From an uncultured Actinomycetes bacterium (GTDB taxonomy: Bacteria; Actinomycetota; Thermoleophilia; Miltoncostaeales; Miltoncostaeaceae), in contig CAJAPZ010000063.1 in NCBI GenBank assembly GCA_903943955.1, forward strand, positions 1-64,000: a stretch of DNA of 64,000 bases, given 5' to 3'. The notes under the pieces are model-generated. The model was not told the DNA's origin. It saw nothing but the letters and a program-made list of their open reading frames with translations, and made no database searches. A program made the position numbers and the translations under genes. Below are positions 5,619 to 48,063 of the stretch, in pieces; position 1 is the stretch's first letter, and each line of letters opens with the position of its first letter.

Positions 5619-7048
5619 CGGACGGCCACTGCAGTGCCATTGCCGGGGCCGGTGACGGCCTCGGCAATGGGAACCGCACCCAGAAGCGTGGCACCGGCGG
5701 CGGGCACATGGCCCACCGACACGGTGGCAGCAGTAAATGCCCGGGCCACCGGTGCGTTACGCAGCCACGCCATCAGGTACGGATATGGATTCACGCTGTC
5801 GCCATTCCCCGGGTGCATCTCAAAGTGCAGGTGTGGCGGGGTGCTGATCGCATTTCCCGTGTTACCCATAAACCCGATGACGTCACCAGCCCGCACCCGG
5901 GCCCCTTCGGTGGCAGCGAGTGAAAACGCTGAGAGATGCGCGTAGTAGTAGGCCGTGCCACGGTCGTCGGTGAGCCACAGGCGGTTACCACCCAGGCGGT
6001 TGACCCCCACCTTCGACAACGTGCCATCGGCCACGGCCACCAGCGGGGTACCCGCCGACCCAAAGATGTCGTTGCCCTGGTGCCATCCGGTGTCGGCACG
6101 GGGGTTTCCGTAGTCGTCTGAGAAGTCGTTGGACGTGCCACCCGCGACCGGGAATACATAGCCTGCTGATGTGGGCACCACCGCCACACCCGGAGCGACC
6201 TGGCGCGGCAGCCCGAGACCCGACGACGGAGTGAGTGGCGACGTCGCACCGGGTACCGGGGTCATCGACGGAGCCGGGGCAATGGGGAGCGCGCGACCGC
6301 CTGCCGAAGGCGACCCATCGGCACCATCTGCGGGCCCGGCAGCTCCCGGGGCACTCGGTGCACTCCCGGGGTCAGGAGATGGCGAATCGGGAATAGGATC
6401 CCCGGTCGTGGCCTTCACGTGCCCGAGCACCACGTCCGTGCCCACTGCGAGGCCCGAGGCAGGATCGGTGATCTGCACGCGCAGGGCGTTGGCGGTCACC
6501 GTTCCGCCATCCACCAATTGCTCCATCAACGTCAGTGTGCCGATGCCCGCAATGTCAACGGGCGTCCCGGGCTGCTCCGCGATGTCCTGACCATCCACGG
6601 TGATGTCGGCAGACCAGGCCACCACGCCCGCTTCGGTGCCCTGGACACCGGCATCGGACCGGATGCCCACATGCAGCGCATTCACCACCACCCGGCCGCC
6701 AAACAGCCGTACGCCCGAGGCGTCGGCCTCGGCCTCGGCGAGCGCGCCCGATCCGCCTGGCCCTGCCCCCACATTCACCGACACGGTGCCGCCTGCTGCG
6801 ACGGCACCAGATGGGGTTGCGGTGGCCGACCGCGTGGGGTGATGCGGCCCAGCGGCGGCCGTGGCGAGGTTGCGGCCGGGCACGATGGCGCCGATACCAC
6901 GAGCGCTCGGGTCGGAAGTGCCCGCGCCAAAGGCGGATCCGGCCGCCAGGGCGCAAATGCAGGCCCCGGCGGCGATCCCGCGAAATGCACATGGCACGCG
7001 TCGCCTCACGTACCGGATTGTGCTTATGGCTCCGGACGGGATCAACAC
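5615..7048 (-). CDS. Secreted M23 (LytM-type) metallopeptidase with anchor-like and Pro-rich regions
   Basis: 477 residues from a GTG start. An N-terminal basic and hydrophobic signal sequence comes first, then a beta-rich region of about 150 residues resembling choice-of-anchor P domains. A Pro/Ser/Gly-rich linker follows, then a C-terminal LytM peptidase. The zinc ligands are visible: H-Q-G-N-D (HxxxD) and H-L-H-F-E (HxH). Several neighbouring motifs (VAVADGTLSKVG, YYYAHLS, GNTGNA) fit an active or scaffold-type LytM domain. It probably cleaves or binds peptidoglycan cross-bridges outside the cell. It is divergent from the NlpC/P60 gene at 7138, with only 89 bp between them. Confidence 0.88.
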   Translation of the reverse strand: MLIPSGAISTIRYVRRRVPCAFRGIAAGACICALAAGSAFGAGTSDPSARGIGAIVPGRNLATAAAGPHHPTRSATATPSGAVAAGGTVSVNVGAGPGGSGALAEAEADASGVRLFGGRVVVNALHVGIRSDAGVQGTEAGVVAWSADITVDGQDIAEQPGTPVDIAGIGTLTLMEQLVDGGTVTANALRVQITDPASGLAVGTDVVLGHVKATTGDPIPDSPSPDPGSAPSAPGAAGPADGADGSPSAGGRALPIAPAPSMTPVPGATSPLTPSSGLGLPRQVAPGVAVVPTSAGYVFPVAGGTSNDFSDDYGNPRADTGWHQGNDIFGSAGTPLVAVADGTLSKVGVNRLGGNRLWLTDDRGTAYYYAHLSAFSLAATEGARVRAGDVIGFMGNTGNAISTPPHLHFEMHPGNGDSVNPYPYLMAWLRNAPVARAFTAATVSVGHVPAAGATLLGAVPIAEAVTGPGNGTAVAVR

Positions 7049-43516: not shown

Positions 43517-43600
43517 GTGAAGACCGACTCAAAGCGCGTCGCCGGTCTCGCGACGTCGGCGGCCCCTCAGGGGCCCGGTACGGCAGACTCGTCCCCATGA
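43517..43600 (+). CDS. 27-residue leader peptide overlapping the response-regulator start
   Basis: A GTG preceded by GGAGG at 6 nt opens a 27-codon frame ([16 protein letters not shown]...) whose TGA overlaps the response-regulator ATG as ATGA. The response regulator itself has no ribosome site (CTCGTCCCC lies upstream), so its translation probably depends on this frame. A GGCCCC/GGGGCC hairpin sits inside the last third. I see no family match for the peptide. Confidence 0.5.
43561..43575 (+). promoter_or_regulatory. Hairpin within the leader ORF, possible translational control element
   Basis: GGCCCC-TCA-GGGGCC is a perfect 6-bp stem with a 3-nt loop, 21 nt before the response-regulator ATG. 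Ribosomes translating the leader would open it. No T-tract follows, so it is unlikely to be a terminator. Confidence 0.4.
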
Positions 43601-44277
43601 GAGTTCTGGTGGTGGACGACGAGGAGGCAGTGCGTACCGCCGTACGGCGGGCGCTGACCCTCGCCGGCTACGAGGTGGAGATGGCAGCGGATGGCGAAGA
43701 GGCCCTCCAGTCGCTGGCCGAGCGGGCACCCGACGCCATCGTGCTCGACATCCTCATGCCCGGTGTTGACGGCATTGAGGTGTGCAGGCGCCTGCGAGCC
43801 GCTGGCGATCACACGCCGGTACTCATGCTCACTGCACGCGATGCGGTGGGCGACAGGGTGGCCGGTCTCGATGCCGGTGCCGACGACTACATGGTCAAGC
43901 CCTTCGCCCTTCAGGAGCTCCTGGCACGACTGCGCGCGCTTCTGCGGCGCACGGGCAACGGCGGATCCGACGATGCCGCCATTCTCAGATTCGACGACCT
44001 CACACTCGACCTCGCGGGACACATGGCCGAGCGGGCCGGACGGCCGATCGATCTCACCCGAACCGAGTTTCTGCTTCTCGAGCTACTCATGCGCAACCCG
44101 CGCGTGGTGCTCACGCGATCGGTCATCCATGAGCGGGTATGGGGCTACGACTTCGGCCCGGCATCGAACTCTTTGGGCGTGTACATCGGGTACCTCCGGC
44201 GCAAGATCGAGGACGCCGACGGGTCGCGCCTTATCCATACAATCCGCGGCGTCGGCTACGTGCTGCGCGAGCCATGA
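43597..44277 (+). CDS. OmpR/PhoB-family response regulator
   Basis: 226 residues. The receiver domain has D-D-E near residue 8, the phosphoacceptor Asp51 in V-L-D-I-L-M-P and the Lys in Y-M-V-K-P-F. The C-terminal winged-helix domain has the [10 protein letters not shown] and R-G-V-G-Y-V-L signatures. The stop overlaps the kinase start (ATGA), so the pair is a two-component system. The closest family pattern is the MprA/TrcR-type actinobacterial regulators; the signal is not known. Confidence 0.95.
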
Positions 44278-45638
44278 CCCTTCGTACCCGCCTCGCCGTC
44301 GGGGCTGCGGTCGCCGTCGCAGTAACGGTGATCGCCGCATCGCTGTCGGCGTTCCTTGTCACGCGCGCGCGCCTTCTGAGTGATGTCGACCAAAGCCTGC
44401 AGCAACAGGTGGAGAAGGTCCTCCATGACGGCCGGGCCGAGCGCATACCGCGCGGCCCCTTTCGGGGGGGCGACCGCTTCGGTGGACCCCAATTCGCGTC
44501 TCAGGTGATCACTGCATCCGGAGTTCTCGACGGTGCGTCACCGCTGCCCGGCGACCTCCCAGTGACAGCCCGCGACAAGGCCGTCGCCGCAGGCACCGAG
44601 CCTGACTACTTCTGGGACGCAAACATCAACGGCGTGCCGGTCCGGGGTCTCACGGCTCGGCTCGGGCCCGTGCTGGCCGACGGCACCGGGGCAGCCTACG
44701 AGGTCGCACGCCCTATTGACGAAGTGCGCTCCGTGCTCTCGGGCCTCGGCATCATCCTGCTCGTCGTCGCGGGAGCTGGCATCGCACTCGGCGCTGGACT
44801 CGGCTGGTTCATCTCGGGCCGGGCGCTCAGACCGGTCGCGATGTTCACCGACGAGACCGAAGATCTCGCAGATGCCGGCGACCTCTCGCGCCGGCTCACC
44901 GAGGGTGGCGATGATGAGATCGGGCGCCTCGCGCGCGTGTTCAACGCCACTCTCGACCAGCTCGAGGCGTCAGCTGACGCGCAGCGGCGTCTTGTGGCAG
45001 ATGCCTCCCATGAGCTGCGCACCCCGCTCGCGTCACTCCGGGCAAACATCGAGGTGCTGCAGCAGGCTGGATCACTGCCGCCCGAGGAGCACGGTGCCCT
45101 ACTGCGCGATGTCGTGCAACAGACGGATGAACTGACCGCGCTGGTCACGGACATCGTGCATGCCGGGGAGAACGCCAACATGCCCGAAGAGGTTCAGGAC
45201 GTGCGTCTGGATGATCTCGTTGCGGCATCGATCGAGCGGACCCGGCGCCTTACCCCCGGCATCACAGTGCTGCAGGACCTCTCGGAGACGGTTGTCGACG
45301 GCGTCCCCGAGCGGTTAGCGCGCCTGGTGGCCAATCTGCTGGACAACGCGGTGAAATGGACCCCGGCGGACCGCCCCATCGAGGTGCGCCTGCACGACCG
45401 CACGCTGACCGTGCGCGATCACGGGCCGGGCTTTGCCACCGACGACCTGCCCCATGTATTCGACCGCTTCTACCGGTCGCCCGCCGCTCGGGGTATGCCC
45501 GGGTCAGGGCTCGGGCTCTCGATCGTGCGCCAAGTCGCCGACATCCACGGCGCAGCGGTCTCCGCTGGCAATGCCGACGGGGGTGGCGCGGTGATGACCG
45601 TCGTCTTCCCACCCCTCTCGGAGTTCGACGACAACTAG
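44274..45638 (+). CDS. Sensor histidine kinase partner
   Basis: 454 residues. Transmembrane helix 1 is at about 9-29, then an extracytoplasmic sensor of about 120 residues and helix 2 at about 157-182. A HAMP domain follows, then HisKA with His246 in [10 protein letters not shown] and a HATPase domain ([23 protein letters not shown]). The chosen ATG starts the first hydrophobic helix. The last 43 codons have a diverged copy at 47331-47459. The stop overlaps the convergent hydrolase in a CTAG tetramer. Confidence 0.95.
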
Positions 45639-47062
45639 GTTGCGAGGACGGCGTCGAGCCAGTCGAAGATGAACTCCTGAGAGGCCTGCGGCCCCAGGGG
45701 CTGGTCGTGGAACTGCGTCCCTGTCTGCACCGTGAGCGGGCGCAGGAACTTCTGGTCGGCATTCAATCCGGTGAGCATGCCCGGGATCCTGCGCGCCTGT
45801 GGCCCGAAGAACTCATCGAGCTGGTTGTCGCAGATGTACATGGGAATACGGATTCGGGGGAGATCTTCCTGATACTGAAACGCGAGAATGGCCTTGCCAA
45901 GCCCGTAGTAGTCGCTTGGAGGAACTCCCCTGCGACCGCATTGGAGGGCATTGGGCGTGTAGAGCTCACTCCGCTTGGACAGCGTGAACCGCTCCAGAGC
46001 AGTCATGTGCTTCCAGGCGTTGGCCATTCCCGCATTCACCTCGGCCGCCACCTTTCTCTGCACTGACGCCGGGGCATCGGCTGTCTCGCGGATGGCCGTG
46101 AGGGACTGCTTATCGCCCCACACCTGCGGAAGCGAATACGCGCCCGGCTCCAGCACGCATGCGGCGAGCCCGGCGGACCCGGCGGCGGCGCTCGACAACA
46201 CCATCCCCAGCAGGCTGATACCGACCGCGGCGATCCTTGAGGCGTCCACATCGGGCCGAGGGATCAGCCACGCGACAACTGCATCGATGATGCCGCTCCA
46301 GTCGGCCTGCATGGGCTGCTGCTGCACGAACAGCAACGACATCTGACCAGGCGCCTCGAACGTAATCGCGTTGTATCCGCGGTCAAGCGCTGCCGTGATG
46401 CCCTCGGCCAGTAGATCGACATTCTGCCCGTCGCTCCCATTGCAGATGATCACCGTCGGACGGGCACGCCCGTCATCCGCAGGTCGGAACAGATAGGCGG
46501 GCATGGTGACGCCCTGGTGGGGGATGCCCACCTGCACGACCGGGACGTCCCACAGCGCGATGCCATTCAGCCAGTCCTGCTCGCATGACCGGAAGATGGC
46601 CGCTTCGCGGCCCGGGCGTGACGTGCCCAGCACGAAGAAGAGCGCCTGTGCCTGATAGGTGGAGGCGCGTAGCCACTGCTGCCGGGCACTCACCAGATTG
46701 CCCGCAGCCTGTGCCTCAGCCGCGCGCCGCTCCAAGCGCGCCGCAAGGCGCTGCCACTCGTGCACGAGAACCGTGAAGTCGCCCCGGGTGGGGTTGACCG
46801 GGTCGCCGGTGCGCTCACGCACCACGCGCACCAACTGCATCACCTCACCGAGCTCAGCGGCCCCCGACGCGGCGCTGCCGAAGGTGAAGAGCGTGGAGTC
46901 GTTCCACGAATCGCACCTGAACATCTGCCAAGGGTCGGGAAGGTCCGGCGTGCCTCCGCCCGGTGCGGCTCCCAGGGCGGCACCGGTAGTGCCCATCGCC
47001 GCCGTGGCGCCGGCAGCGATGGCAGCCCGCCCCAACAACTGGCGCCGGGTGAAATGGTTCAT
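45635..47062 (-). CDS. Tat-exported alpha/beta hydrolase (FrsA/DUF1100-like)
   Basis: 475 residues from the ATG at 47062; a TTG two codons earlier is weaker. The N-terminus has a twin-arginine signal (F-T-R-R-Q-L-L-G). The hydrolase core has P-T-V-I-I-C-N-G-S-D-G near residue 215, a nucleophile-like G-I-S-L-L-G (Ser at the elbow, though the usual G-x-S-x-G has Leu at the fourth position and Gly at the fifth) and an Asp in Y-I-C-D-N-Q-L-D-E. The role may be ester or peptide hydrolysis outside the cell. It lies between the kinase gene and the duplicated remnants. Confidence 0.82.
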   Translation of the reverse strand: MNHFTRRQLLGRAAIAAGATAAMGTTGAALGAAPGGGTPDLPDPWQMFRCDSWNDSTLFTFGSAASGAAELGEVMQLVRVVRERTGDPVNPTRGDFTVLVHEWQRLAARLERRAAEAQAAGNLVSARQQWLRASTYQAQALFFVLGTSRPGREAAIFRSCEQDWLNGIALWDVPVVQVGIPHQGVTMPAYLFRPADDGRARPTVIICNGSDGQNVDLLAEGITAALDRGYNAITFEAPGQMSLLFVQQQPMQADWSGIIDAVVAWLIPRPDVDASRIAAVGISLLGMVLSSAAAGSAGLAACVLEPGAYSLPQVWGDKQSLTAIRETADAPASVQRKVAAEVNAGMANAWKHMTALERFTLSKRSELYTPNALQCGRRGVPPSDYYGLGKAILAFQYQEDLPRIRIPMYICDNQLDEFFGPQARRIPGMLTGLNADQKFLRPLTVQTGTQFHDQPLGPQASQEFIFDWLDAVLAT

Positions 47063-47139
47063 TGTCAAAGTTTCGCACCCATACCTTCAATCCACAACGC
47101 ATCGGTCAGGAAATGAAGCCATTCCACCTCCCACCCGGT

Positions 47140-47327
47140 TACTCCGGCGGGCGGGGCACGTTGACGGCATCAACGGGAATGCCTGCGTGCTTCTCGACCT
47201 TCGCGCCCGCGTCGGCGCCGAATGCCCGGCCCTGGAATACGCGGTGCCCATACCCGACCGCGATCACCTGGCAGTGGTGGCCCGTGCCGGTCTCCATGAT
47301 CGGGCTGCCGGGCTCACCGATGGCCCA
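47140..47327 (-). pseudogene. Remnant of a usp 3' end plus tRNA-Thr 5' fragment
   Basis: 47141-47327 aligns without gaps to 47600-47786 at an offset of 459, about 85% identical by my count. It covers 11 bases of the tRNA-Thr 5' end and then the last third of the universal stress protein. Read on the minus strand the usp frame is still open (A-I-G-E-P-G-S-P-I-M-E-T-G through G-R-A-F-G-A-D to K-H-A-G-I-P-V). The original stop is lost, and reading ends at a TAA in the tRNA fragment. The 5' two thirds are missing, so this is a truncated copy. Transition and wobble changes dominate. Confidence 0.85.
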
Positions 47328-47330
47328 AGG

Positions 47331-47459
47331 CTGGGGCTCTCAATCGTGCGGCAAGTCGCCGATCTGCACGGCGCATCCGTCTCTGCCGGGAATGCCGATG
47401 GTGGAGGCGCAGTGATGACGGTTGTCTTCCCGCCCCTATCGGATCTCGACGATGCGTAG
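47331..47459 (+). pseudogene. Remnant of a histidine-kinase 3' end
   Basis: 47331-47459 aligns without gaps to 45510-45638, the last 43 codons of the intact kinase, offset 1821, about 80% identical by my count. It keeps the reading frame from [10 protein letters not shown] to V-V-F-P-P-L-S and the stop codon in the same position. It has no start codon or upstream kinase sequence, because it begins at the junction with the usp remnant, which points the other way. Confidence 0.85.
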
Positions 47460-47494
47460 CGGCAGTGCCCGCGGGTGCTGGTTCCCGTCGCACG

Positions 47495-47521
47495 CCACTC
47501 GTACCCCGGTGGCACGAGTGG
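47495..47521 (-). terminator. Hairpin 3' of tRNA-Thr, possible terminator
   Basis: CCACTCGT and ACGAGTGG form a perfect 8-bp stem with an 11-nt loop, 14 nt beyond the tRNA 3' end on the minus strand. There is no T-tract, so it may act in processing or be a weak terminator. Confidence 0.4.
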
Positions 47522-47534
47522 AGGCCTCCCGCGA

Positions 47535-47608
47535 AGCCGAAGCCGGGATTCGAACCCGGGACCCCCTGTTTACAAGACAGGTGCTCTGGCCATCTGAGCT
47601 ACTCCGGC
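47535..47608 (-). tRNA. tRNA-Thr (anticodon UGU)
   Basis: Minus-strand cloverleaf: acceptor GCCGGAG pairs with CTTCGGC (one G-U), D arm AGCTCAGATGGCCAGAGC, anticodon loop CTTGTAA, T loop GTTCGAATC and discriminator U. Anticodon TGT reads threonine ACA (and ACG by wobble). The 3' CCA is not encoded. It sits 8 nt beyond the usp stop codon on the same strand. A fragment of its 5' end is repeated at 47141. Confidence 0.97.
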
Positions 47609-47616
47609 GGGTGGGG

Positions 47617-48063
47617 CTAGTCGACGACCTCGACGGGAATGCCCGCGTGCTTCTCAACCTCGGCGGCCGTGTCGGCGCCGAATGCCCGGCCCAGGAATGA
47701 GTGGTGACCTTGTCCGACCACGATCAACTGGCAGTGGTGGTCCTTGCCGGTCTCCACGATCAGGCTGCCGGGCTCACCGATGGCCCAGGCGTAGGTGGCC
47801 TTCTTCACGCCAGCGGCATTTACCTTCTCGCGCGCCTCACCCAGCACCTCGTGCATGTCGGGGAGCTCGGGGAATGGGCCAACCATGGGGCTGCCGTCGC
47901 CCATGGTGCCGAAGGCCCGAGGTCCTGTTGGATCAAGCGCCGCCTCGTGGACTGCGAGCACCAGCAGCGACGCGTGGCGCTCATGAGCCAGAGCAATTGC
48001 GCGGGTGAGGGCGCGATCGGCCGACTCGCTACGCTCGTAGCCGACCAGAATGGGTGAGCTCAT
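47617..48063 (-). CDS. Universal stress protein
   Basis: 148 residues of the UspA fold. The start I-L-V-G-Y-E-R-S-E-S-A-D-R-A-L is typical. The C-terminal nucleotide-binding motif is degenerate (G-Q-G-H-H-S-F-L-G-R-A-F-G), lacking the classical G-x2-G-x9-G-S, so ATP binding is doubtful. Its 3' end, together with the tRNA boundary, is duplicated at 47141-47327. It has no partner gene in its own operon. Confidence 0.9.
   Translation of the reverse strand: MSSPILVGYERSESADRALTRAIALAHERHASLLVLAVHEAALDPTGPRAFGTMGDGSPMVGPFPELPDMHEVLGEAREKVNAAGVKKATYAWAIGEPGSLIVETGKDHHCQLIVVGQGHHSFLGRAFGADTAAEVEKHAGIPVEVVD

Follow-up and report, generated by a model that had tools for sequence, protein, structure and literature searches.

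Gene order and the mosaic patch beside tRNA-Thr

The window, meaning the whole stretch of 64,000 nucleotides that was analysed, comes from a small-genome (about 2 Mb) actinobacterial assembly (G000), whose closest named relatives are metagenome-assembled genomes (MAGs) labelled Actinobacteria, Actinomycetota or Thermoleophilia. The locus was found to contain a response regulator, a sensor histidine kinase, an FrsA/S15-like alpha/beta hydrolase, tRNA-Thr, a universal stress protein (Usp), a sigma factor and a SpoU methylase. The features on which the analysis draws are the following, where G002, G003 and G017 denote other genomes of the same genus.

43597-44277: OmpR-type response regulator, adjoining the kinase gene (ORF list, Pfam)
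44271-45638, + strand: complete sensor histidine kinase with HAMP, HisKA and HATPase_c domains (Pfam, ORF list)
45120-47060: tract probably imported from a donor like G003 and G017 (change-point in the G000-G003 difference)
45508-45638, + strand: K1, the 3' tail (allele A) of the working kinase and most likely a replacement, from the G2-box codons GLGLSIV to the stop
45635-47062, - strand: alpha/beta hydrolase (FrsA/S15-like), the cargo gene (Pfam, ORF list)
47140-47327, - strand: U1, the first 9 nt of tRNA-Thr plus the usp 3' part, a neutrally decaying pseudogene fragment
47325-47334: U1/K2 junction (read from the sequence)
47331-47459, + strand: K2, a kinase 3' end (allele B) without 5' part, most likely the displaced native end (match to G002)
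47460-47534: native kinase-tRNA spacer, G002-like, carrying a hairpin (CCACTCGT...ACGAGTGG, by eye) at 47495-47521
47535-47608, - strand: intact tRNA-Thr (TGT) (ARAGORN)
47617-48063, - strand: intact usp gene, U2 (Pfam Usp, 4.6e-17)

The convergent kinase and hydrolase genes overlap in their stop codons, which form the palindrome CTAG at 45635-45638.

A repeat search of the window recovered positions 47140-47327 as a gapless 86% copy of 47600-47787 (188 nt, spacing 460) and positions 47326-47452 as a gapless 83% copy of 45505-45631 (127 nt); the gapless copy of the kinase 3' end runs over about 47331-47459 at approximately 80-83% identity. BLAST found the same similarities in relatives with E values of 1e-31 for the kinase tail and 1e-56 for usp, far past chance. 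Self-alignment and comparison with relatives bore out the original prediction that the 3' ends of usp and of the kinase gene stand head to head here, both derived from this very locus.

An assembly artefact was excluded, since the structure recurs in independent MAGs. The kinase-hydrolase-U1 part is present in two others (G003 and G017, 67-69% complete) and the U1/kinase junction in one of them (G003), and the mosaic is thus not a one-off misassembly. A + strand frame across the mosaic (46659-47459) is open over 266 aa in the window; it was rejected as a fused gene and regarded as a chance frame because it is closed in both G003 and G017. The junction pattern had no match among IMG/VR contigs, so that a phage or virus origin is unsupported.

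Decay of the usp fragment and ancestry of the kinase tails

U1 opens with the first 9 nt of tRNA-Thr (TACTCCGGC on the + strand) and contains no more of the tRNA. Compared with the intact usp, it gave a dN/dS of 0.97 and its changes were spread 8/10/8 over the three codon positions; the usp stop codon is gone, and the copy in G003 has an in-frame stop. These findings rule out selection on U1 and show that it is ordinary dead DNA undergoing neutral decay, as had been supposed. About fifteen changes are common to all three U1 copies and absent from every intact usp of four close genomes, indicating that U1 had a single origin.

The statement that both remnants keep their frames held as far as the lack of indels is concerned, but not for U1 as a reading frame, given its lost stop codon, its dN/dS and the stop in G003. 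Nor did the lack of indels prove surprising for dead DNA. With 26 substitutions, the chance that U1 would show no indel was about 7-27% at assumed indel:substitution ratios of 0.1-0.05, and its unbroken frame follows from its short length and the few indels expected; K2, on the other side of the joint, appears to be recent.

K2 was 96-97% identical to the kinase end of G002 and only 80-83% identical to K1, and the kinase end plus spacer of G002 matched window positions 47326-47489 at 96%. The dN and dS values, which are rough in the case of dS since the tails are only about 130 nt long, were 0.08 and 0.89 for K1 vs K2, 0.01 and 0.06 for K2 vs the G002 tail, and 0.09 and 0.90 for K1 vs the G002 tail, compared to a G000-G002 background dS of 0.23 in the kinase body and 0.21 in usp. 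Tail A of K1 was 97.4-99.1% identical to the G003 and G017 tails over 38 codons. Because a dS of 0.06 and one of approximately 0.9 flank a background of approximately 0.2, K2 is of the G002 type and the K1 tail comes from another allele. On these distances K2 appears to be a G002-type tail that recently stopped coding, which would account for its intact look, and is most likely the displaced native end of the window's kinase; the working kinase most likely carries a foreign tail that arrived with the hydrolase and U1. The nearly exclusively synonymous differences between K1 and K2 were rejected as a sign of selection on K2, since they reflect selection before displacement. The outgroup G009 was somewhat closer to tail A (78%) than to tail B (70-71%), so that either of the two may be the ancestral tail of the clade.

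The locus in related genomes

Nineteen same-genus genomes were searched for the locus and the matching loci were compared. Kinase, hydrolase and U1 are common to the window, G003 (L023) and G017 (L024) at about 95%, and the architectures differ past U1. In G003, the same U1/kinase boundary is followed by a third tail (tail C, starting GLGRSIMRQVSEMHGATATAGNAPGRGG... and about 70% identical to tail B) and about 3.2 kb of other cargo including a MauE/thioredoxin-like gene. In G017, U1 is lost at the position equivalent to 47269 and an AbiEii-like gene precedes the tRNA. G002 (L025) has no hydrolase and no insert, only kinase, 234 bp, tRNA and usp. A search for further kinase or usp remnants in the spacers of ten other genus members found none, so that among the loci compared they were seen, besides the window, in G003 and G017 only.

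Besides the MauE/thioredoxin-like protein, the G003 cargo (L023:5485-8460) encodes two proteins that have no Pfam match: one of 208 aa is Cys-rich and looks by eye like a methylamine dehydrogenase light chain, and the other, of 500 aa, is membrane/beta-propeller-like. The kinase-tRNA spacer of G002 holds about 150 bp more than that of the window (L025:1287-1440), bounded by CCCGTC repeats.

The original prediction had explained the patch by a tandem duplication of kinase-tRNA-usp in one genome, followed by a deletion from the first usp into the second kinase. Order and orientation fit such a history, the synonymous distance between U1 and usp is low enough for a local duplicate, and a short microhomology at the joint suits a deletion. 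A duplicate made within the genome should, however, be nearest to K1, and K2 is the sister not of K1 but of the G002 kinase end (dS 0.06 vs 0.89). Moreover, a third tail occupies the same place in G003, which has the same mosaic and no tandem form, the very case that the original prediction had named as its refutation. The full tandem arrangement, sought in relatives, appeared in none of the genus loci read: tRNA-Thr(TGT) occurs at most once in each, and so does a complete usp. The proposed duplication is therefore quite improbable for this genome, whereas a duplication in an older ancestor is a possible first source of the U1/kinase joint.

The joint in G003 reads GGCCCAGGGCTGGGG, and by inspection usp (..CCCAGGCG) and kinase (..TCAGGGCT) share CAGG there, a 4-bp microhomology. 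An unlikely reading is that homology-facilitated illegitimate recombination (HFIR) with donor DNA from the same locus produced the U1/K2 joint directly, the donor pairing within the kinase at one end and its usp being closed onto the recipient kinase through the 4 bp of microhomology at the other. Such a process would leave homology at one end and microhomology at the opposite one, and CAGG falls within the reported signature of 3-10 bp (PMC3240628). Competence genes are present as well: ComEC and DprA were found in 12/12 genomes tested, which makes DNA uptake plausible, not proven. HFIR usually brings a deletion of similar size, yet the window has lost none of the recipient-type sequence, from the kinase tail through spacer and tRNA to usp. 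In addition, the identical joint stands in G003 before a different tail, and the first U1/kinase joint is for that reason most likely older than the window's K2; it may first have formed either by HFIR, whose illegitimate joints it resembles, or by an old duplication followed by deletion.

Over 13 loci of the genus, the distance from kinase stop to tRNA varied between 48 bp and 5.0 kb, and the cargo differed among them (hydrolase, MauE-thioredoxin, AbiEii-like, polysaccharide deacetylase, pentapeptide and LRR genes). With the same flanks and different content in close relatives, the locus is a flexible island beside a tRNA gene, or a recombination hotspot. In the window the insert is not bounded by direct repeats of the tRNA 3' end, only the 5' 9 nt being repeated, and such a repeat was seen in G015 only. 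There, the 3' half of tRNA-Thr recurs as a 46-bp copy with 87% identity (L033:4278-4323) about 1.5 kb from the intact tRNA-Thr (5823-5896), with small ORFs and no obvious integrase gene in between, as is typical of insertions at tRNA 3' ends. G013 has an MFS transporter gene (L031:1902-3477) inserted on the opposite flank of the tRNA, where it separates tRNA-Thr from usp.

A scan of the named genomes for the hydrolase returned three loci, in G003, G017 and one Thermoleophilia MAG contig. Several relatives of the hydrolase were observed beside tRNA genes elsewhere. The last 68 residues of a member of the same family (81% identical) form a 5'-truncated remnant in G011 (L061:2468-2876), head to head with the 3' end of another frame and near tRNA-Lys, an architecture like that of the window's mosaic at another tRNA. 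Further hydrolase relatives lie directly after tRNA-Thr(CGT) in G016 (L026:5212-6796) and about 1.9 kb from tRNA-Lys in G001 (L028:536-3889).

Import of a block into the kinase gene and comparison with known systems

The difference between G000 and G003 was 7.7% to the left of approximately 45120 and 2.0% to the right, and this change-point had a log-likelihood ratio of 33.0, with permutations reaching 9.4 at most. G000 matched G002 at the majority of shared informative sites up to approximately 45080, and matched G003/G017 from approximately 45120, apart from a short four-site G002-like patch at 45488-45503, after which tail A begins; scattered recipient patches inside mosaic tracts have been reported for transformation (PMC13344027). 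The hydrolase dS between G000 and G003 was 0.038 vs 0.12-0.17 in flanking genes, indicating that the segment from approximately 45120 to the hydrolase end was exchanged recently. The parts of the locus group the genomes differently, with G003 and G017 together in kinase body and usp, G000 and G003 in the hydrolase, and G000 and G017 in U1, which argues for repeated exchange. G000 and G003 are further apart in U1 (0.107) than in the hydrolase (dS 0.038), so the two parts cannot have come together from a G003-like donor in a single transfer unless further exchange took place.

Taken together, the 320-bp mosaic is probably the right-hand scar of a horizontally imported block that was inserted in the kinase gene by homologous import. 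The block would have consisted of kinase tail A, the hydrolase and U1, the last already a dead usp fragment, and the recipient kinase would have been a G002-like allele with tail B. RecA-type recombination may have acted on DNA from a G003-like donor with the order tail A-hydrolase-U1-second kinase tail, pairing in the kinase on the left and between the donor's second tail and the recipient's single tail on the right, so that the block was inserted. The import would have split the recipient kinase in conserved G2-box DNA (CAGGGCTSGGGCTCTC), at CAGGGCT; with tail A, the upstream part would again have formed a working kinase, and the native tail B would have been shoved 1.8 kb downstream to lie beside the tRNA as K2. 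The first U1/kinase joint may have formed earlier, by illegitimate (microhomology) joining of a fragment of the locus. Against import of the block stands that no compared genome has tail C as its native kinase end without the block. It is equally possible that tail B is not native and that recombination at K2 and the tRNA brought it to its present place at a later time.

Site-specific integration would yield a similar arrangement, if a small circle (tail A-hydrolase-U1) had entered through a single crossover at a core within the G2 box of the kinase, after the model of phages and islands that target the 3' ends of genes and bring a replacement end with them. The clean break in the native kinase at a common core of about 30 bp, the replaced tail with displacement of the native one, and the same boundary in G000 and G003 before different tails all agree with this. 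However, the block carries only hydrolase and U1 and no recombinase, and the only two tyrosine recombinases of G000 are Xer-like, lying side by side elsewhere in the genome, and probably are XerC and XerD. Further, the G000-G003 similarity begins about 400 bp left of the core, and on the right the block ends in a piece of the adjacent usp, pointing to DNA of the same locus. Integration of this kind is thus very unlikely, and homologous import is the reading followed here.

A wider proposal, doubtful at present but conceivable, is that cargo blocks with their own kinase tail insert repeatedly at G2-box DNA across lineages, which would make the 3' end of this kinase a landing site that can be used again. 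If so, the kinase would be regenerated each time and the old tail left as a scar, and cargo and alternative kinase C-termini would travel together without a recombinase of their own.

The scar itself is functionless; what may matter is the gain of the hydrolase and the swapped kinase C-terminus. When cargo is swapped at the island beside the tRNA, the sensor-kinase 3' end would go with it, and the C-terminal change would be a side effect. Displaced gene ends of this type serve as datable fossils of single gene-transfer events in uncultured bacteria, revealing donor type, direction and order of insertion. A caution also follows, as gene fragments that preserve their frame in GC-rich genomes may lack selection. 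Informative as it is, the patch is on the whole an ordinary trace of gene exchange; its less usual detail is that the end of a protein gene serves as the recombining flank and is left as a scar.

Some elements insert in the 3' end of a gene and supply a replacement end, for example e14 in icd. In the window, too, the working gene has acquired a divergent 3' end while its native one lies beyond the insert; unlike such elements, the insert has no integrase or element genes, only one hydrolase and a usp fragment. HFIR is known from Streptococcus pneumoniae, Acinetobacter baylyi and Pseudomonas stutzeri (PMC3240628), and the window's joint resembles its products in having one homology-anchored side and a short microhomology joint on the other. 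It differs in that the joint is common to two lineages before different kinase tails, and the latest event needs homologous recombination alone. Streamlined aquatic bacteria such as 'Ca. Actinomarinales' have flexible genomic islands, additive or replacement, at tRNA genes (PMC7771536). As in those islands, the cassettes beside the tRNA vary from relative to relative and are exchanged between lineages, whereas what is repeated in the window's scar is the tRNA 5' end with usp and the 3' end of a protein gene, and not the tRNA 3' end.
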